Positions 1,148 to 52,810 of a stretch of 64,000 bases of DNA are shown here, in pieces. Made by a program: the position numbers and the translations under genes. Position 1 is the first letter of the stretch. Every line of letters begins with the position of its first letter. The notes beneath the pieces were generated by a model. The model was not told where the DNA came from. It made no database searches and saw nothing but the letters and a program-made list of their open reading frames with translations. Location of the stretch: contig NZ_CP019239.1 in assembly GCF_001955715.1 (NCBI RefSeq), positions 248,001 to 312,000 of the forward strand, given 5' to 3'. The DNA comes from Rhodoferax saidenbachensis (lineage in GTDB: Bacteria; Pseudomonadota; Gammaproteobacteria; Burkholderiales; Burkholderiaceae_C).

Positions 1148-1381
1148 GGTGGTCCGAGGACGGAGGTAGGGGACAAATCCGCGCCAGGCTGCTATGCCCG
1201 CAGTGGTGAAACGTGGGGGCCAAATTTTCCGCAGGGCCGCCCCAAGGAAAATTAGCCCCCGAGGGGCTGAAGGCTGCGGCTCCAGAGCCACCTGCGTGGC
1301 TTCGGACAGCCTGAAGAGCCCTAGCCTCTGGCTGGGCCTGATCAGCGACCCGCGCAGCGGCGGAGCGTGGGGGCAATATTT
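1148..1381. repeat. Intergenic R2 repeat copy with an internal insert
   Basis: The convergent gap between the diguanylate cyclase and lplT has no credible gene. It holds an R2-type copy read on the minus strand. The GGGCCGCCCCAAGG and GCCCCCGAGGGGCT part at about 1234-1268 and the CAGCGACCCGCGCAGCGG part at about 1343-1360 are contiguous in other copies but here are separated by about 70 bp. A further partial end (CGTGGGGGCCAAATTTTCC) lies at 1212-1230, so the copy looks nested or rearranged. The dyad may act as a transcript end for the two converging genes; this is inference. Confidence 0.6.
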
Positions 1382-2665
1382 TTAGCCGTGCAGGTTGTCG
1401 CTGCGCGCGATATCCAGCAGGTGTTCCACCTCTTCGGCATGTTCACGGCAGTTGCGTGCATGCCAGCGTTTGATCAGCCACATGAAGCCTGCCACCACCA
1501 CACCAAACACGGTGATGGCGCCAAAGGCGGAAAGCCCCATGCCGGTGGACAGGCTGTAGAACGCGCCCAGTCCCAGAATGCAGGCCTGTTCGTTGAAGTT
1601 CTGCACCGCGATGGAACGCCCTGCGCCCATCAGGTTATGGCCGCGGTGCTGCAGCAGCGCATTCATGGGCACCACCAGAAACCCCCCCAGGCCACCCAGC
1701 AAGATCAGGAACGGCGCTGCCACCCAGACGTTGGTAATGAAATTGAGCAGGATCACCAGCAGGCCCATGGCGATACCCAGCGGCATCACATTGGTCGCCT
1801 GGTCCAACTTCATGCGCATGGAGGCTGCCACGGCACCGACGGCCGTACCGATGGCCACCACGCCCACCAGTGCCGAGGCCTGCGTCACGCTGTAACCCAG
1901 TGCCGCTGCGGCCCAAGCCAGCACGATGTAGCGCAGGTTGCCACTGACCCCCCAGAACAGGGTGGTGGTGGAGAGTGAAATCTGGCCCAGCCGGTCGCGC
2001 CACAGGCGCAGGTTGCAGTTCCAGAAGTCCGGCAACAGGGAGATCATGCGCTCGGGCAGCGGGCGCATGGGTACACCGGTCAGCGGGATGCGGGTATTGA
2101 ACCAGGCGGCGGCGATGTAGACAAAAATCAGCACGCAGATGGCGGCCTCGGGTGCCGTGTCTATGCTGGTGGTGATGAAGGGAAAGTCAAAAGACAACAG
2201 GGCCGAAGAGATGTTGTGGCCTACCAGTTGCCCACCCAGCAGCACGCCCAGGATGATGGAGGCAATCGTCAGGCCCTCAATCCAGCCGTTGGCCTTGACC
2301 AGTTGCGAGGACGGCAGCAGCTCGGTGAGGATGCCGTATTTCGCCGGTGAGTAGGCCGCCGCGCCCAAGCCAACGATGGCATAGGCCATCAGCGGATGGG
2401 TGCCAAACAGCATCATCAGGCAGCCCACAATCTTGATGCCATTGCTGATCAGCATGACCTTGCCCTTGGGCAAGGCGTCGGCAAAGGCGCCGACAAAAGG
2501 TGCCAGTACCACATAAAACAGCGCGAACATGGGCACCAGCGCGGCCTGCTGCCATTCAGGCGCGCCGCTGCTGCGTAACAGTTGTACCGCTCCCACGAAC
2601 AGCGCGTTGTCGGCCAGCGAGCTGAAAAACTGCGCTGACATGATGGTGTAAAAACCGCGTTTCAT
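1382..2665 (-). CDS. lplT: LplT-like lysophospholipid transporter (MFS)
   Basis: 427-residue major facilitator superfamily protein with about 12 membrane helices, closest in character to LplT. That family flips lysophospholipids across the inner membrane for re-acylation. The N-terminus (SLADNALFVGA, about residues 16-26) and the PKGKVMLISNGIKIVG stretch after helix 2 are family-like. In enterobacteria lplT is joined to aas (acyltransferase/acyl-ACP synthetase); no aas is present here, so the acylation partner must be elsewhere. It is divergent from alr across about 125 bp. The family assignment is good; the exact lipid substrate is inferred. Confidence 0.82.
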   Translation of the reverse strand: MKRGFYTIMSAQFFSSLADNALFVGAVQLLRSSGAPEWQQAALVPMFALFYVVLAPFVGAFADALPKGKVMLISNGIKIVGCLMMLFGTHPLMAYAIVGLGAAAYSPAKYGILTELLPSSQLVKANGWIEGLTIASIILGVLLGGQLVGHNISSALLSFDFPFITTSIDTAPEAAICVLIFVYIAAAWFNTRIPLTGVPMRPLPERMISLLPDFWNCNLRLWRDRLGQISLSTTTLFWGVSGNLRYIVLAWAAAALGYSVTQASALVGVVAIGTAVGAVAASMRMKLDQATNVMPLGIAMGLLVILLNFITNVWVAAPFLILLGGLGGFLVVPMNALLQHRGHNLMGAGRSIAVQNFNEQACILGLGAFYSLSTGMGLSAFGAITVFGVVVAGFMWLIKRWHARNCREHAEEVEHLLDIARSDNLHG

Positions 2666-5104: not shown

Positions 5105-7695
5105 TGGGGGGCGGTCGCGGTGCTGCGCCAGCGTTTCATCGCCTCAAACCACAGCACACTCGCACCGCCCAGTCCCAGCGCGGCCATCAGATCAAGTGCG
5201 GTCAGCGGTGCAAAGAAAAACAAGTTGGCCAGCCACGGCACATACACCGTCAGCGCCATCAGGGCCAGCGCCAGGGCGCTCACGATCCACAAGGTGCGAT
5301 TGGGTACCTGCAGTGAGGCCCACAGCCCGCCCGAGCGCGAACGGTTGGAGAAAATCAGTGCCAGATTGCCCGCGACCAGAGTCACAAAAACAAAGGCACG
5401 GCTGGCATTTGCATCCAGCCAACTGGTGCTCCACAGATAGGCCCCTACGGTCACCAGCAATACGCCCAGGCCTTGCAACAAGGCCAGCAACAACGTCATG
5501 CCACCAAAGAGTTGTGCGCTGGCATCGCGCGGCGGACGCTGCATCACATCGGCTTCTTCGGGTTCGTTTTCAAACACCATGGAGCAGGCCGGGTCCACCA
5601 CCAGCTCCAGAAACGCAATGTGCAGCGGGTACAACAATACCGGCCAACCCATCAGCACGGGCAGCAAGGCCATGCCGGCCACGGGCACATGCACGGCCAG
5701 GATGTAGGACATGGATTTGCGCAGGTTGTCAAAAATGCGCCGCCCGAGCTGCACCGCGCCGACGATGGACGCGAAGTTGTCGTCCAGCAGCACCAGGGAC
5801 GCGGCTTCACGCGCCACGTCGGTGCCGCGTCCGCCCATGGCCACACCCACATGCGCAGCCTTCAGTGCCGGGGCGTCATTCACGCCGTCACCGGTCATGG
5901 CTACCACCTCGCCGTTGGCTTTGAGGGCTTGCACGATGCGCAGTTTTTGCTGTGGCGCCACACGCGCGCACACCGACACAGTTTGCATGTGGGTCTGCAG
6001 TTCGGCATCGCTCAGAGTGTCTATCGTGTCGCCGGTCAGTACGTTCGCAGCCTCTTTCACAGGTATCCGCGCGGCCCGTGCAATGGCCAGGGCGGTTGTG
6101 GGGTAGTCGCCGGTGATCATCACCACACGAATGCCAGCGCTGTGGCACTGCGCCATGGCCAGCGGGATCTCGGCGCGCAGCGGATCTGCCAACCCCAGCA
6201 GGCCGACAAATGCAAATTCGAAATCATGCTCAACGGCCGGCCAGTCCGTGCCCGCAAAACGCGCTTCGGCGACGCCCAGCACGCGCAGGCCCTTTGCCGC
6301 CATGGCGTCCACCGCCTGCGCGATGCGCTGCTGGGCCGCCGTGTCCAGATGGCACAGGTCGGCAATCGCTTCGGGCGAGCCCTTGGCGGCCACCACATGC
6401 GCCTCGCCTTTGACGGCACGCCACACGTGGGACATGGCGCGCAGCTGCGGCGTCAGGCCGTATTCACGCTCCAGCGTCCAATCGCGGTGCAGGTGCTCCG
6501 TGCCCGCCAGGAAATGCTGGCCCAGGCGGTGGAAGGCCTTTTCCATCGGGTCAAAGGGCTCCTCCACACTGGCCAGAATGGAGTACTCCACCAGGGTGTG
6601 AAAGGTTTCGGGCAGCTCGGCGCTGGCGGCGTAGTCAATGTCCAGTGTGTGGGCGTTGCTTCCATCGGCCTCCTGCACATGCAACTGCGCCACCGTCATG
6701 CGGTTTTCGGTTAGCGTGCCGGTTTTGTCCACGCACAACACCGATGTGGCGCCCAGCGTTTCTATCGCGGCAATACGCCGCGTCAGCACCTGCTTCTTGG
6801 ACAGGCGCCACGCGCCCAGCGCGGGCAAGACGGTGAGCACCACGGTGAATTCTTGTGGCAGCAGCGCCATCGCCAAGGCGATGGCCGCCAGCAGCGCAGC
6901 CAGCCAGTCGCCCCGCAACAGGCCAAACGCCAGAAACAAGGCCAGGCTGGCTCCCAGGGCGACGAGCGCCAGCACTTTCACCAGCCGTGCGGTCTGTTTC
7001 TTGAGCGGCGAGACCTCGGTGTTCAGGGCGCCCAGCGCAGCACCGATGCGGCCGATCTCGCTACGTGCGCCCGTTGCCGTCACCAGCGCACTGCCGTGGC
7101 CCCGTACCAGCAAGGTCCCGGAGTACAGGGTGGATGGGCCGCCCCTAGGCGAGTTGGCCCCCTCGGGGGGCAGCGACCCGCGCAGCGGTGGAGCGTGCGG
7201 GTTTTTTTCCACAGGAACTGCTTCACCTGTCAGTAGCGATTCATCGACCTGCATATCTCTGCCCGACAGCAAGGTCGCGTCCGCAGCAATGCGGTCGCCC
7301 TCTGCCAGTACCAGTACATCACCGCACACCACGTCACTGCCCGCGATACGGGTGGGAACGCCGTTGCGCAGCACCAGTGCACGCGGGCTGGTGAGATCAC
7401 GCAGGGCGGCTATGGCCTGTTCGGTTTTTCCTTCTTGGTACAGTGTCAGGGCCAGTACGACCAACACCAGCGCCAGCAGAATCAGGCCCTCCTGCATATC
7501 ACCCAGCAGGAGATACAACAAGGCCGCCGCCAAGAGCAACGCGAACATGGGCTCGCGCAGGGTTTCCATGGCAATGGCCAGCCAGGTGCGACGGCGGTCC
7601 GTGGGCAGCGTGTTGGGCCCGTCTTCGTGCAGACGGGCAGCCGCATCGGCCGCACTCAAGCCCTTGGAGTCTGGATGTGTCGCCGGTAGAACCAT
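5101..7695 (-). CDS. Cation-translocating P-type ATPase (Ca2+/P2-like) carrying an R2-derived insertion
   Basis: 864-residue P-type ATPase with the usual order: N-terminal cation ATPase domain, two helices, actuator domain (LLTGEAVPVEK, about 154-164), helices with ALLPQEF in place of the common PEG(L) motif, phosphorylation site DKTGTLT (323-329), nucleotide domain, TGDGVNDAPALK hinge, and a C-terminal helix bundle. It resembles calcium- or unspecified-cation pumps; the ion is not determinable. Residues about 166-187 (PHAPPLRGSLPPEGANSPRG) are extra relative to the family and are encoded by an R2 repeat at about 7135-7203. The start at 7695 has a good GGAGG site and overlaps the 3' end of mgtA by 40 bp, implying co-translation. 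Confidence 0.85.
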   Translation of the reverse strand: MVLPATHPDSKGLSAADAAARLHEDGPNTLPTDRRRTWLAIAMETLREPMFALLLAAALLYLLLGDMQEGLILLALVLVVLALTLYQEGKTEQAIAALRDLTSPRALVLRNGVPTRIAGSDVVCGDVLVLAEGDRIAADATLLSGRDMQVDESLLTGEAVPVEKNPHAPPLRGSLPPEGANSPRGGPSTLYSGTLLVRGHGSALVTATGARSEIGRIGAALGALNTEVSPLKKQTARLVKVLALVALGASLALFLAFGLLRGDWLAALLAAIALAMALLPQEFTVVLTVLPALGAWRLSKKQVLTRRIAAIETLGATSVLCVDKTGTLTENRMTVAQLHVQEADGSNAHTLDIDYAASAELPETFHTLVEYSILASVEEPFDPMEKAFHRLGQHFLAGTEHLHRDWTLEREYGLTPQLRAMSHVWRAVKGEAHVVAAKGSPEAIADLCHLDTAAQQRIAQAVDAMAAKGLRVLGVAEARFAGTDWPAVEHDFEFAFVGLLGLADPLRAEIPLAMAQCHSAGIRVVMITGDYPTTALAIARAARIPVKEAANVLTGDTIDTLSDAELQTHMQTVSVCARVAPQQKLRIVQALKANGEVVAMTGDGVNDAPALKAAHVGVAMGGRGTDVAREAASLVLLDDNFASIVGAVQLGRRIFDNLRKSMSYILAVHVPVAGMALLPVLMGWPVLLYPLHIAFLELVVDPACSMVFENEPEEADVMQRPPRDASAQLFGGMTLLLALLQGLGVLLVTVGAYLWSTSWLDANASRAFVFVTLVAGNLALIFSNRSRSGGLWASLQVPNRTLWIVSALALALMALTVYVPWLANLFFFAPLTALDLMAALGLGGASVLWFEAMKRWRSTATAPH
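7135..7203. repeat. R2 repeat inside a P-type ATPase gene
   Basis: The stretch GGGCCGCCCCTAGG ... GGCCCCCTCGGGGGG then CAGCGACCCGCGCAGCGG matches the intergenic R2 copies near 1.2, 26.9 and 37.0 kb, read in the minus orientation. It lies in frame in the actuator domain, just after the conserved TGE loop, and adds about 22 proline/glycine-rich residues without breaking the frame. Confidence 0.8.
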
Positions 7696-10166
7696 TGTTT
7701 TCCTCCTTCCACCAAGCTGAGATACCCCACCAGCAAAGCTATCAGCAAGCCAAAAAACGCTGCAGGCAGGGGGGTGAAGCCCAGCATGCCTGCCAACGGT
7801 GTGAACGGCAATGCCATGGCAGCCAGTACCACTGCCAGTGATGTGAGCGTCAGCCAGCGGTTCGGGTGGCTGCGCAGCGGGTTGCGACGGGTGCGAATGA
7901 CGAAAATCACCAGTACCTGGGTGGCGATGGACTCGACAAACCAGCCGGTGCGGAACAGGGTTTCATCGGCCTGGAACAGTCGCAACAGCAGGTAGAAGGT
8001 CAGAAAGTCGAACAGCGAACTGATAGGGCCGATCGTCAGCATGAAGTCGCGGATAAAGCCCATGTCCCAGCGTTTGGGCCGGGTCAGATCTTCTGCGTCC
8101 ACTTCGTCCAGCGGCAACGCAATTTCCGACACGTCATAGAGCAGGTTGTTGAGAAGAATCTGCAGTGGCAGCATCGGCAAAAATGGCAAAAACAAGGTGG
8201 CCGCCGCCATGCTGAACATGTTGCCGAAGTTGGAGCTGGTGGCCATCATGATGTACTTCATCACGTTGCCAAAGGTGCGCCGCCCTTCCAGCATGCCAGC
8301 ATGCAGCACCATCAAATCTTTCTCCAGCAGAATCATCGCGGCAGCCTGTTTGGCTACGTCCACCGCATCGTCCACCGAAATGCCGACATCGGCGGTATGC
8401 AGCGACGGCGCGTCATTGATGCCGTCGCCCATATAGCCCACCACATGTCCGCGCGCCTTGAGGGCCAGGATGATGCGGTTCTTCTGGGCCGGGTTCACAC
8501 GGCAGAACAGATTGACGTCTTCGACGCGCGCGCGTAAGGCATCGTCGTTCATGCTGGCAAGCTCCGTGCCGGTAAGCACGCCAGTGATGGCAATGCCGAG
8601 CTGCGTGCACACATGGCGCGTCACCCGTTCGTTGTCGCCGGTGACGATTTTTACGGCCACGCCGCTGTCGGCCATAGTCTGCAGGGCCTGCCCGGCGCTG
8701 GCCTTGGGCGGGTCCAAAAATGCGGCAAAGCCCGCAAACACCAGCGCGCTCTCGTCTGAAATCACTGCATGCGGATGGTCTTGCGGAACTGGCTTCCACG
8801 CAATGCCCAGCACCCGGAAACCTTCCTCGCTCAGACTGTCAAACAAGGCGTTGATGCGCAGCAGGCTGGCTGCATCCAGTGTCTGCGTGGTACCGCTGGG
8901 GTCCTGGAAATGGGTGCAGAGTTTCAGAATGTCTTCAGGGGCCCCTTTGACCAGCAGTTGGCGCTGCGCATCTTTTTCCAGTAGCACCGAGACGCGGCGG
9001 CGCTCAAAGTCGAACGGCACCTCATCAATCTTGGCCCAGCCTGTGGCATCGATCTCGCCGTGCGCCAGGATGGCATCATCCAGCGGGCTTTTCAGACCGC
9101 TCTCGAAGTAGCTGTTCAGGTAAGCCAGACGCAGCACCTCGGCGTTCTCACGGCCATCGGCATCGACATGGCGCTCCAGGCGGATATGGGCTTCGGTCAG
9201 CGTGCCGGTCTTGTCGGTGCATAACACATCCATCGCGCCCATATCCTGAATAGCCGATGGGCGCTTGACGATCACCTTGAGCGCGGCCATGCGCAGTGCA
9301 CCGCGCGTGAGTGTGACCGAGACCACCATCGGCAGCAGCTCCGGTGTCAGGCCGACAGCCAGTGCGACGGCGAACAGGAAGGATTCGAGCAAGGTGCGGT
9401 GCAAGGCCACATTGACCAGGAGCGTGAACAGCACCAACAGCAGCGTCAGGCGCATGATCAGCACGCCAAATTGCCGCGTGCCGATTTCAAAGGCTGTGGG
9501 CGGCGCCTTGTCGGCCAGGCTCACTGCAATCTGCCCCAACGCGCTGCTGCTGCCGGTGCGCCCCAGCAATACATGGGCGGAGCCGCTGACCACCGAGCTG
9601 CCCATAAACACACTGTCGACTGCGTCCAATTCCCAAGAGGCTTCGGTTGCGGGCACGGTGGCGCGAGCCTTTTTCTCCACCGGATAGGGCTCGCCGGTGA
9701 GCTGGGCCTGGTTGACGAAGAAATCTTTGGCCTCCAGCACATGGGCGTCGGCAGGGATCAGGTCGCCAGCGGACAGCAAGACCACGTCGCCGGGCACCAA
9801 CTGGGCGACGGGGAGGTCGTGGGGTTTGCCGTCGCGCAGCACCGTGGCCGTGACGGCCACCTGCAGCGCGAGCTTGGCCGCAGCCTGGCCGGCGCGGTAG
9901 GCCTGCACAAAGTCCAGTGCGACGCTCATGACGACGATCACAGAGATCACGAGTGCGCCACTCAAGTCACCCGTCAGCGCAGAGACACTGGCCGCGGCCA
10001 GCAGGATCAGCACCAGCGGATTGCGGAACTGCGCCATAAATTGCAGCAGGGCCGCGCGCTGCACTGCGGGCCGCAACTGGTTGGGGCCCCACTGGGCCAA
10101 GCGCTGTTCGGCCTGGGACTGGCTGAGGCCTTCAGTTGCCGAGGGAACAGGCGGGGGCAGCGTCAT
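7656..10166 (-). CDS. mgtA: Magnesium-translocating P-type ATPase MgtA/MgtB
   Basis: 836-residue P3B-type ATPase, predicted to import Mg2+ at the inner membrane. Diagnostic features are VGLTPELLPMVV in the membrane domain, the phosphorylation motif DKTGTLTEAH (D318), GDGINDAPSLH in the hinge, and NNLLYDVSEIALPLDEVD, a signature stretch of MgtA-type pumps. It is somewhat shorter than the ~900-residue enterobacterial proteins, mainly at the N-terminus. It leads a two-gene unit with the second P-type ATPase (40 bp overlap). No Mg2+-sensing leader is evident in the 130 bp between it and the divergent radA. Elsewhere in the window corA and an mgtC-like gene also bear on Mg2+. Confidence 0.9.
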   Translation of the reverse strand: MTLPPPVPSATEGLSQSQAEQRLAQWGPNQLRPAVQRAALLQFMAQFRNPLVLILLAAASVSALTGDLSGALVISVIVVMSVALDFVQAYRAGQAAAKLALQVAVTATVLRDGKPHDLPVAQLVPGDVVLLSAGDLIPADAHVLEAKDFFVNQAQLTGEPYPVEKKARATVPATEASWELDAVDSVFMGSSVVSGSAHVLLGRTGSSSALGQIAVSLADKAPPTAFEIGTRQFGVLIMRLTLLLVLFTLLVNVALHRTLLESFLFAVALAVGLTPELLPMVVSVTLTRGALRMAALKVIVKRPSAIQDMGAMDVLCTDKTGTLTEAHIRLERHVDADGRENAEVLRLAYLNSYFESGLKSPLDDAILAHGEIDATGWAKIDEVPFDFERRRVSVLLEKDAQRQLLVKGAPEDILKLCTHFQDPSGTTQTLDAASLLRINALFDSLSEEGFRVLGIAWKPVPQDHPHAVISDESALVFAGFAAFLDPPKASAGQALQTMADSGVAVKIVTGDNERVTRHVCTQLGIAITGVLTGTELASMNDDALRARVEDVNLFCRVNPAQKNRIILALKARGHVVGYMGDGINDAPSLHTADVGISVDDAVDVAKQAAAMILLEKDLMVLHAGMLEGRRTFGNVMKYIMMATSSNFGNMFSMAAATLFLPFLPMLPLQILLNNLLYDVSEIALPLDEVDAEDLTRPKRWDMGFIRDFMLTIGPISSLFDFLTFYLLLRLFQADETLFRTGWFVESIATQVLVIFVIRTRRNPLRSHPNRWLTLTSLAVVLAAMALPFTPLAGMLGFTPLPAAFFGLLIALLVGYLSLVEGGKQWFYRRHIQTPRA

Positions 10167-35982: not shown

Positions 35983-36120
35983 GGGTTGATTGTCGCGGGG
36001 TTTTAGGGGGCTATTTCAGGGCCAGGCTTTCTCGCTTCGGGTGAAGTGGCTTGAGATTTTGCGAGTCTTGGACAGGCTGCTTCAGACTGATAGTCGACTT
36101 TCACATCGCTCTAAAGCAGT
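35983..36120. other. Spacer upstream of TSUP gene
   Basis: About 140 bp between the TSUP gene start and the integron-type attC-like site. No gene is visible. It must contain the TSUP promoter on the minus strand, but no clear -35/-10 pair stands out. Confidence 0.4.
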
Positions 36121-36207
36121 CGTTAACGTTGGCGCTGCCCGGCACACAGCACTGGCCGCGAAGCGGCCTCTCTCTGCTGTGTGTCCGCGCCGAGCAACCC
36201 GTTAGGT
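36121..36207 (-). repeat. attC-like integron recombination site
   Basis: Read on the minus strand, this 87-bp imperfect palindrome starts with ACCTAAC (a perfect RYYYAAC inverse core) at 36207-36201 and ends at CAACGTTAACG with GTTAACG (a partial match to GTTRRRY) at 36127-36121. The arms share GGCGC, ACACAGCA and GGCCGC around a CGCGAAGCG-type loop. The upstream ORF's TAA stop lies inside the ACCTAAC core, as in integron gene cassettes. Confidence 0.7.
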
Positions 36208-36462
36208 TTTGTACCCATTGCGGATTGTTCTAAGAATGACCCTGCCATGAGGTTCTTCGCCATCGCCCTGAAGAACGGCAACTTGAATGCTTCCTCCGAT
36301 ACATGGAGTAATGCGCTTTTCAAGTAACTCTGTAATTCTCAAACTTGCATCTGCGGCATTTTTCTTGTCGTAATCTTTTACTTCTGTATTTGGATCTGTG
36401 CGCAAAACAATCCGAATTCCTTCGACAGCCCAGACCTTTTCCTCAAAATCACTTGCTTTCAT
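36202..36462 (-). CDS. Cassette-encoded small protein of unknown function
   Basis: 86-residue soluble protein (starts MKASDFEEKVWAVEGIRIVL; PHGRVILRTIR near the C-terminus) with AAGGAG 9 bp before its ATG. No catalytic motif is recognised. From memory, small hypothetical proteins with similar openings occur in integron cassettes; this was not checked. Its stop codon is within the attC-like core and a GTTAGGT core site lies about 40 bp upstream of its start, so it fills a ~380-bp mobile cassette. Its codon use is more AT-rich than its neighbours. No integrase gene is in the window. Confidence 0.75.
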   Translation of the reverse strand: MKASDFEEKVWAVEGIRIVLRTDPNTEVKDYDKKNAADASLRITELLEKRITPCIGGSIQVAVLQGDGEEPHGRVILRTIRNGYKT

Positions 36463-36790
36463 GTTGTAACGCTCCTTGTGGTGAAAAAAACTCGATAAAA
36501 ACCTAACGAATGCCTACCGCAAAACCTGCGGGATATTCTGGTCGCTGCGGGATAAACTGGGCGAAAAATGCGCTGGGAAGCCGCTTGCAGTCTCGATTTC
36601 AGTAATATTCATGTGCGTTTGTACAGGTATAAAAATTCCGACAAACCACGCACGTTGTAAGGAACGGCGTGGGCCACAGAATTCACGATTCTCACGCCTC
36701 GGAACCAGCTTGAACATCCCCCATTCGGGTGATTCTGCGAACGACTGCTTCCGCCGCAATGCAGCCCAAGCAAACATTGAATCCACCATA
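36463..36790. other. Gene-poor region upstream of the cassette
   Basis: Holds the upstream core site of the cassette (ACCTAAC at 36501-36507, GTTAGGT on the minus strand), a pair of 10-bp direct repeats CTGCGGGATA (36526-36535 and 36545-36554), a minus-strand 32-codon frame (36612-36514) ending next to the core site, and the 17-mer ATCCCCCATTCGGGTGA at 36716-36732. Nothing here looks like an integrase or a full gene. Confidence 0.5.
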
Positions 36791-36820: not shown

Positions 36821-36975
36821 GAAGCAGTCTTTGCGAAGCTGCTGTTGTTGTTTTTGCCGTCTCCTCGGCGTCGTCTCTAACCAGGTTGCGTGTTCGCAGT
36901 TGCTGTGTGTCTGGAACAAGCCTCAATGTAGCTGCCTTGTGGGGGCGTCGGCATCAGGACAAACCCTTTAAACAT
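36821..36975. other. Spacer between terminator and R2 repeat
   Basis: About 155 bp with no supported gene; overlapping frames here lack ribosome sites and recognisable domains. Confidence 0.4.
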
Positions 36976-37060
36976 ATTGCCCCCACGCTCCGCCGCTGCG
37001 CGGGTCGCTGCCCCCGGAGGGGGCTAATTCTGCTTGGGGCGGCCCGGCGCAAAATTGTCC
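36976..37060. repeat. R2 repeat overlapping the GMC oxidoreductase 3' end
   Basis: GCCCCCACGCTCCGCCGCTG, CGGGTCGCTGCCCCCGGAGG, GGGCTAATTCTGCTTGGGGC, GGCCCGGCG. It contains the stop codon and last residues (about APGRPKQN) of the minus-strand GMC gene. Confidence 0.82.
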
Positions 37061-38775
37061 CGGGCGTCCTCGGCGATCCACTGGGCCGCCTTTTCCGCAA
37101 TCATCAGGGTGGGGGAGTTGGTGTTGCCGCTGGTGATCAGTGGCATGACGCCCGCATCGACCACGCGCAGACCGGCCACGCCGCGCACCTTGAGGCGGTT
37201 GTCGACCACAGCCATCGGGTCGTTGTCGGGTCCGTCCACGCGGCCCATTTTGGTGGTGCCGACGGGGTGGAAGATGGTGGTGGCGATATCACCGGCCAAT
37301 TGCGCCAGTTCGGCGTCACTCTGGAACTGGGTGCCGGGTTTGTATTCCTCGGGCTGGTATTTCTGCAGCGCCGGCTGCGCCACGATCTTGCGGGTTACGC
37401 GCAGCGAGTCGGCGGCGATCTGGCGGTCTGCGTCGGTGCTCAGGTAGTTGGGCGCAATGGCCGGTGCGTCCTTGAAATCGTTGCTCTTGATCTGCACCGT
37501 GCCGCGGCTGGTGGGGTTGAGGTTGCAGACGCTCGCGGTAAAGGCGTTGAAGCTGTGCAGCGGCTGGCCAAACGCATCCAGGCTCAGCGGTTGCACGTGG
37601 TATTCCAGATTGGGGTGCGGTTGGCTGGCATCGCTGCGCGTGAAGGCGCCCAACTGGCTGGGCGCCATGCTCATGGGGCCGGTGCGTTTGAAGGCGTATT
37701 CCAGCCCGATCTTCGCCTTGCCCCACAGGCTGTTGGCCTGGGTGTTGAGGGTGGGGGTGTTCTTGACCTTGAACACCGCGCGGATCTGCAAATGGTCTTG
37801 CAGGTTGGCGCCCACTCCGGGGGTGTCCTGCACCACAGGTACGCCGCGCGCCTGCAGCAGCGCGGCCGGGCCCAGGCCCGAGAGTTGCAGAATCTGTGGG
37901 CTGCCCACGGCACCTGCACACAGCAGTACCTCGGCGCGCGCTGTGGCGGTCACAAGCGTGGAGCCATCCCACACCTGCACGCCGGTGCAGCGCAAGGGCG
38001 CGTCACCTTCGGTTTGCGGCTCCACTACCAGCTTGGCCACTTGGGCGCTGGTCCACAACTCGAAGTTGGGGCGGGCGTAACAGGTGGGGCGCAAAAAGGC
38101 CTTGGCCGTGTTCCAGCGCCAGCCGGCTTTCTGGTTCACCTCGAAATAGCCCACGCCTTCGTTGTCGCCGCGGTTGAAGTCGTCGGTGGCGGGGATGCCG
38201 GCCTGTGTGGCCGCTTGTGCAAACGCGTCCAGCACATCCCAGCGCAGTCGTTGTTTCTCGATGCGCCATTCACCGCCCGCACCCCGATGGCGCAGTACTT
38301 TCTGGTACGGCGTGCTGCCTTCCTGCAGCAACGCTGGGGTGGTGCCGCGTGCTCCGTGTACGGCGCTGGCGCCTTTGTAGTGGTCTTCGTGCAGCTTGAA
38401 GTAGGGCAGCGACTGGTCCCAGCGCCAGCTTGGGTCGTTCAGCAGCTGGGCCCACTGGTCGTAGTCACGCGCCTGGCCGCGCATGTAGATCATGCCGTTG
38501 ATGCTGGAGCAGCCGCCCAGCGTCTTGCCGCGCGGGTAACGCAGCGCGCGGCCGTTGAGGCCGGCCTCGGGCTCGGTGTTGTAGAGCCAGTCGGTGCGCG
38601 GGTTGCCGATGCAGTGCAGGTAACCCACGGGGATATGGATCCAGTGGTAGTCATCGCGGCGGCCGGCTTCGATCAGCAGCACGCGCTTGGATGCGTCCGC
38701 CGAGAGCCGGTTGGCCAGCAGGCTGCCTGCCGTGCCTGCGCCGATGATGATGTAGTCAAACGTGGTTTCGCTCAT
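37024..38775 (-). CDS. GMC-family FAD oxidoreductase
   Basis: 583-residue flavoprotein of the glucose-methanol-choline family. N-terminal FAD fold DYIIIGAGTAGSLLANRLS, GMC signature GGCSSINGMIYMRG, and active-site context FHPVGTTKMG near the C-terminus. It resembles choline or alcohol dehydrogenases; the substrate cannot be fixed. The ATG at 38775 is preferred to the TTG at 38784. The C-terminal APGRPKQN is encoded by an R2 repeat and may be an extension of the native end. It follows the antiporter gene by about 33 bp on the same strand. Confidence 0.87.
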   Translation of the reverse strand: MSETTFDYIIIGAGTAGSLLANRLSADASKRVLLIEAGRRDDYHWIHIPVGYLHCIGNPRTDWLYNTEPEAGLNGRALRYPRGKTLGGCSSINGMIYMRGQARDYDQWAQLLNDPSWRWDQSLPYFKLHEDHYKGASAVHGARGTTPALLQEGSTPYQKVLRHRGAGGEWRIEKQRLRWDVLDAFAQAATQAGIPATDDFNRGDNEGVGYFEVNQKAGWRWNTAKAFLRPTCYARPNFELWTSAQVAKLVVEPQTEGDAPLRCTGVQVWDGSTLVTATARAEVLLCAGAVGSPQILQLSGLGPAALLQARGVPVVQDTPGVGANLQDHLQIRAVFKVKNTPTLNTQANSLWGKAKIGLEYAFKRTGPMSMAPSQLGAFTRSDASQPHPNLEYHVQPLSLDAFGQPLHSFNAFTASVCNLNPTSRGTVQIKSNDFKDAPAIAPNYLSTDADRQIAADSLRVTRKIVAQPALQKYQPEEYKPGTQFQSDAELAQLAGDIATTIFHPVGTTKMGRVDGPDNDPMAVVDNRLKVRGVAGLRVVDAGVMPLITSGNTNSPTLMIAEKAAQWIAEDARDNFAPGRPKQN

Positions 38776-51515: not shown

Positions 51516-52782
<1,267 letters not shown>

Positions 52783-52810
52783 CCCCAGCCCACGTGCTGG
52801 GGTTTTTTTT
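52783..52810 (+). terminator. Terminator of the hemB-hemJ RNA candidate
   Basis: CCCCAGC-CCACGT-GCTGGGG then eight T residues. Confidence 0.85.

Follow-up and report, generated by a model that had tools for sequence, protein, structure and literature searches.

An integron gene cassette beside an attI site without intI in Rhodoferax saidenbachensis, and related units dispersed in the genus

The cassette, its attC and its attI

Between a TauE gene and a GMC gene of the window, by which we mean the whole 64-kb stretch that was analysed, lies a gene cassette flanked by parts of an integron (Table 1). The initial annotation had described here an 86-codon ORF with AAGGAG upstream, a stop codon inside ACCTAAC, an imperfect palindrome and a second core site, GTTAGGT. 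All of these are present in the sequence: the stop sits inside ACCTAAC at 36207-36201(-), and GTTAGGT is found at 36507-36501(-).

Table 1. Coordinates of the features at the locus, in window positions
Feature	Position	Strand	Remarks	Basis
3' half of attI and start of 3' terminal sequence (TTAACGACTGCTTT)	36113..36126	-		like sequence after other attCs
attC site	36121..36207	-	R'' ACCTAAC, R' GTTAACG	palindrome down to GTTAACG, 36127-36121(-)
Gene cassette	36127..36506	-	380 bp between two G^TT crossover points	sequence, attC model, attI profile
86-aa cassette ORF	36202..36462	-	own AAGGAG before ATG	
attI site	36507..36569	-	junction G^TTAGGT	profile of intI-adjacent attIs
attI direct repeats	36526-36544 and 36545-36563	-	D1 repeats	
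Leader ORF overlapping attI	36514..36612	-	32 codons, premature stop in window copy	translated copies, junction-frame analysis
Relic of intI promoter region (TACAGGTATAAAAATTCC)	36611..36652		intI start codon and gene absent	copies aligned with intI upstream regions
Tail of dispersed unit, in the place of intI	36653..36738		hairpin-like CATCCCCCATTCGGGTG within 36712-36731	
Half of terminal palindrome (GAACGACTGCTTCCGC...)	36739..36766		window copy unscored by palindrome profile	full palindromes in other copies
Stretch absent in closest relative (G033, L006)	35998..36786		boundaries approximate	read by eye

The window attC was among the training sites of the attC model R1, so the R1 score for the window was not counted as evidence. 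It was replaced by R2, a covariance model made from 11 attCs of intI-bearing loci alone, from which the window was excluded to avoid circularity. The sole R2 match in the window at E ≤ 10 is 36208-36120(-), with 72.2 bits and E of 4.6e-17; Rfam at gathering thresholds gave no attC match in the window. Folded as single-stranded DNA, 36118-36210 has z of -3.2 on the + strand and -3.3 on the - strand, and equally stable folds were found in 1/200 and 0/200 shuffles, respectively. When 23 attCs, including the window's own, were aligned, 10 of the 18 predicted pairs had changes on both sides. An nhmmer search seeded with four attCs, that of the window among them, found homologues in the intI loci L058 (two), L059, L057, L063, L065 and L066. 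On the strength of the R2 match, the proposal that 36127-36506(-) is a genuine integron gene cassette, composed of an ORF and attC, is borne out.

At E ≤ 1e-3 we found 43 homologues of the 86-aa protein, which is present in 5/369 genomes of the class, its own genome included. A 36% identical homologue lies between two attCs at L191, in a genome of another family; R1 found no attC at the other three loci with a homologue. The protein matches no Pfam or NCBIfam family, and its AlphaFold model (pLDDT 75, moderate confidence) gave 0/14 PDB matches at E ≤ 0.001.

The locus had been taken for a single attC lacking an integron. This does not hold, since the cassette sits in attI. A profile was made from 12 intI-adjacent attIs and no orphan attI (13 were tried, and L055 came out empty). 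In a 525-kb set this profile picks window 36569-36502(-) with E of 3.9e-7, as well as many other orphan sites. Thus, of the parts of a complete integron, the window locus has attI and a cassette with attC joined at G^TTRRRY, and it has no intI in cis. The window attI is without one consensus base and may be dead. Among 37 orphan attIs, window included, the 50 bases that precede the junction, the last few of which are fixed by the junction pattern itself, average 1.11 bits of conservation per position, against 0.14 from +7 on; seven attI matches that did not fit the junction pattern were left out. TTA or TTG follows the junction in 31/37. Conservation therefore ends at G^TTRRRY, as recombination of attI with attC predicts, which further supports the limits of the cassette.

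On the other side, the 3' core GTTAACG matches GTTRRRY only partly, as had been noted, and this need not reflect decay of attC. Judging from the sequence, GTTAACG would be the G of the cassette joined to TTAACGACTGCTTT, the other half of attI, because like sequence trails other orphan attCs. With at most 2 of 10 mismatches, ACGACTGCTT follows 15 of the 45 attCs in orphan loci, window included, against a chance rate of 1.1%. The 0/19 obtained at intI loci is an unfair contrast, as flanks of about 1.5 kb rarely reach the array end.

In 57 attIs, the reading frame that runs into the junction has a median open length upstream of at least 50 codons, compared with 29 and 24 codons in the other frames. 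A TRR stop is at the junction in 46/57, and a start with a ribosome-binding-like site was found in 23/57 by a loose test (4-5 bases). ORF-11 of attI1 is a short ORF across attI that takes its stop from the GTTRRRY of the cassette, according to the part of PMC8876359 available to us. The Rhodoferax leader ORF has the arrangement described there, with the stop supplied by the cassette; it is 20 codons long in a number of attIs linked to intI and in some orphan ones and, unlike ORF-11 as described there, is changed in the window family. We looked for selection on the leader peptide and saw no sign of it: mean entropy in the 57 attIs is 1.30, 1.26 and 1.14 at codon positions 1-3, so third positions are not more variable.

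Beyond attI, the relic of the intI promoter region keeps a conserved TTTGTCG motif on the - strand, and short matches were also seen. Several intI genes of relatives have repeat-like sequence upstream and then a promoter with ATG, the box of which we take to be LexA-box-like. In the window, an unrelated tail of about 120 bp follows TACAGGTATAAAAATTCC. When this tail was compared with 24 intI loci (flanks of about 1.5 kb, shorter where a contig ended), only 15-18-bp matches at chance level were found. No sigma-70-like promoter was found on the - strand of the window module. A motif G(A/G)GGTTTGTCG lies before ATTTTTATA-like sequence, between tail and attI, at L123 (2330-2340), L125, L126, L037, L039, L047, L049, L083 and L085, and is kept across otherwise different attI types. 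Similar CGACA(A/G)ACCCTGCA lies between attI and intI in the intact integrons L056, L057 and L065. The motif G(A/G)GGTTTGTCG is perhaps a cassette promoter.

Units of one family in the chromosome and in the genus

The absence of intI near the locus, reported in the initial annotation, extends to the whole genome. In the complete 4.26-Mb sequence the only matches to TIGR02249 are two below its cut-off, the better of which is XerD, and IntI proteins matched nothing at E < 0.1 in the window and the arrays of this genome except the XerD gene. The description of the cassette as a lone one has to be abandoned: it belongs to a dispersed family, and this chromosome alone carries attCs at nine other loci. 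R1 found 11 attCs at nine loci; R2 found attCs at these nine and at a tenth at 2.869 Mb, the best E per locus being 1.2e-20 to 0.0012. The attI profile matches at 6/10 of these loci (E of 3.9e-7 to 0.039), three more have attI-like junctions by eye only, and one is without attI.

The sedentary chromosomal integron of the genus often lies beside ahpF. AhpF (TIGR03140) adjoins 10 of the 24 intI loci of relatives, eight near the full query and two at a contig end. The own AhpF gene (1287405-1288715, 90% identical) is beside attI and two attCs, with no intI. At the ahpF site of G070 there is only an N-terminal piece of IntI, with 46-80 aligned residues.

When the TauE-GMC region was searched as DNA against 61 genomes, window ~36502-36766 was found again in genomes of the same genus (Rhodoferax in the GTDB sense), beginning at the core site of the cassette. 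The repeat was matched at E ≤ 1e-10 in 20/103 genomes of the genus, own included. Among 38 copies other than that of the window, 20 are contiguous over attI and tail and 68-84% identical to the window; they come from 11 genomes (G001, G007, G015, G020, G030, G061, G064, G068, G069, G070 and G086). A copy was called contiguous when it started no later than query base 18 and ended no earlier than base 233, and copies with identical cores were dropped. A 20-base tail pattern, with up to 1 mismatch, is in 32/103 genomes, seven times in the own genome, and its reversed control in 0/103. Among named genomes a tail pattern gave 22 loci, under the titles Rhodoferax, Curvibacter, Comamonadaceae, Burkholderiales or uncultured beta proteobacterium.

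We mapped 26 loci against a reference order that starts with a palindrome, continues with hairpin, GTTTGTCG, attI and cassette(s) with attC, and closes with a palindrome again. One locus (L039) has all of these, six (L037, L045, L049, L083, L085 and L123) miss one element and 14 are partial; the other five (L127, L128, L129, L131 and L184) have attI and/or attC only. At L037, L035 and L049 the attC-end sequence comes back on the far side of the array, and the genes between are different. A profile of the palindrome gave 58 hits, some of them one place under two locus ids. L058 had suggested that intact integrons might have a palindrome at the end away from intI, but this found no support, as 0/58 profile hits fall in L055-L078. 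Several tandem palindromes lie about 200-780 bp apart at L085, L106 and L134, with ORFs between them and some without detected attC.

Cassettes beside orphan attIs are mostly different, though a few arrays have cassettes or flanks in common. One cassette is common to L059, where it is the first of an intI-bearing array, and L045, where it is the second of an orphan array; the two are 82% identical over 358 bp and 84% over 114 aa. The intI gene is over the family cut-off in 21/103 genomes of the genus. Among the 30 genomes that are at least 98% complete, 22 carry attCs (E ≤ 1e-4); an intI match (E ≤ 1e-60) is in 11 of these 22 and in none of the other 11, and also in none of the 8 genomes without attC.

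In the other replicons searched, phages gave no attI match and plasmids gave one, of 45 bp, on Polaromonas sp. JS666 plasmid 1. This attI-like site (L184, 4988-5059(-), E of 1.1e-8) heads a run of hypothetical genes; the plasmid is typed as conjugative, and R1 found no attC at L184. At L100 of G003, an orphan attI has a tyrosine recombinase gene (1196-2170(+)) on its cassette side. This gene scores 177 bits with TIGR02249 and 171 bits with NF040815, both below cut-off, and by sequence appears to be an integrase-like gene, not a standard IntI.

Origin of the unit at the window locus

The empty site that the initial annotation had looked to in relatives was found. GMC adjoins TauE in 24 of 29 related TauE loci, with a gap of 171-500 bp versus 1041 bp in the window, and the other five have no GMC match in the stretch covered. 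R2 found attC in none of the 24, and the repeat matched none of the 29. Compared with G033, the window has about 790 bp extra, that is, the whole unit including attI and tail plus some flank, and not the cassette alone.

We conclude that 36113-36766 is probably an integrase-less integron platform, with a cassette that was captured by IntI acting in trans or in an ancestor and would now be fixed, and that the unit itself was probably copied around. In it, attI carries direct repeats, the intI promoter region survives as a vestige, a single cassette is joined at G^TT, and half of attI follows attC. The cassette would have entered by recombination of attC with attI through an integron integrase, either supplied in trans by another integron of the cell or at work in an ancestor that still carried one. 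Since the genome has no intI, the cassette would now be fixed and rely on its own ribosome-binding site and any promoter of the module. The intI-less unit itself would have spread by copying to many places in the chromosome, as a single attI-to-tail sequence stands in the place of intI in 20 other copies; this common arrangement suggests that the loss of intI probably preceded the spread. Several findings count against this reading. The other 18 of the 38 copies have the tail part only or the attI part only, and the attI match is weak at 5/10 own loci (E of 0.00096-0.039). In G007, G020 and G069, the intI-adjacent attIs do not, by eye, resemble the orphan attIs that these genomes also carry. 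A search with one pattern at up to 3 mismatches gave no empty unit. A MITE-like non-autonomous element would be expected to have precise ends with inverted repeats and a target-site duplication; palindromes bracket many copies of the unit, and no such duplication was seen at the window locus in the comparison with G033.

It is doubtful that each site was once a complete integron or a fragment of one, which lost intI on the spot or by rearrangement and whose unit never moved without intI, although this is the usual reading of CALINs. Local decay does occur, as seen from the truncated intI of G070 and the intI-less array of the own genome (G000), both at ahpF. However, 20 copies in 11 genomes have one sequence where intI would be expected, and one common junction is not what repeated independent deletions would leave; the comparison with the 24 intI loci, which covered about 1.5 kb on each side, also did not turn up the tail. 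We consider it very improbable that an integrase inserted the cassette at a non-attI, attG-like site of the chromosome in which no integron was present. The single attC and the empty locus in relatives would agree with such an event, and integration at attG sites is cited in the part of PMC12444791 available to us, but the 5' side is attI by profile, the relative misses about 790 bp and not 380, and the same flank recurs with other cassettes. Practically no weight is left for an ordinary fixed gene with a chance palindrome: the ORF does have its own ribosome-binding site, but the E of 4.6e-17 for attC and the absence from 24 related loci speak against it.

Returning to the copied integrase-less platform, a wider view may tentatively be put forward, that of a distributed integron in Rhodoferax. 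The attI modules, non-autonomous and bracketed by palindromes, would be separate sites of capture and expression, with an integrase that acts in trans or is transient. If this were true, cassettes would be kept at many loci instead of in one array.

At L050 (about 7500-8430; G000 2867.5-2868.4 kb), an IS30-type transposase-like gene, recognised by eye, lies directly upstream of a further orphan unit of the window's own chromosome, and a second attI-like junction follows the array. A REP-type transposase was considered as the mover; the own genome has one Y1_Tnp gene, for which no link to the units was seen.

Comparison with known systems

The usual description of an integron has a single attI next to a single intI, and arrays that have no intI are taken for debris or stray cassettes. 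Like a CALIN or single attC, the window locus has attC and a cassette with no intI nearby. In the accessible part of PMC9024848, single-attC cases can be true, and IntegronFinder detects attI only in class 1 and by default needs two attCs for a CALIN, so that the window locus, with attC and without intI, is a CALIN with one attC, below the program default. Unlike a CALIN, the window unit adds attI, a promoter-region relic and a common tail, and the units form one dispersed family. It has an attI, attC and cassette pool homologous to those of the sedentary chromosomal integron (intI, attI and cassettes), but it is without intI, is not at ahpF and occupies many sites per genome.

Similar cases are described elsewhere, as far as the sections available to us go. 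Xanthomonas CALINs occur at seven chromosomal loci away from ilvD (PMC12444791); like the Rhodoferax units they are integrase-less arrays away from the native integron site, but in those sections no attI-bearing module is described for them. The delta-attI-type cassettes of class 1 and 2 integrons (PMC12901181) have attI pieces in unusual places that are still usable by IntI1. There, attI pieces replace attC inside these integrons, whereas in Rhodoferax whole attIs head separate integrase-less arrays. In Treponema phagedenis, intI was lost and attCs were left behind (PMC3607928). CALINs, single attCs and loss of intI with attCs left are thus already known. In the accessible parts of the open-licence literature we found no report of dispersed attI-bearing integrase-less modules, which is no proof of absence in print.

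In the genomes studied here, platforms with attI but separate from any integrase are present in many copies, many of them with one sequence in the place of intI. If our reading is correct, some CALINs would be platforms in their own right. Such platforms may have been missed because few searches for attI go beyond class 1. Integrase action in trans also becomes a directly testable question.

Elsewhere in the window, a GC-rich stretch of about 80 bp beside GMC (~36975-37061) has many copies in genomes of the genus and is apparently a dispersed intergenic repeat. At 52725-52810(+) there is a match to anti-hemB RNA (Rfam RF02837, Burkholderia RNA 7), with 54.6 bits, above the gathering score.
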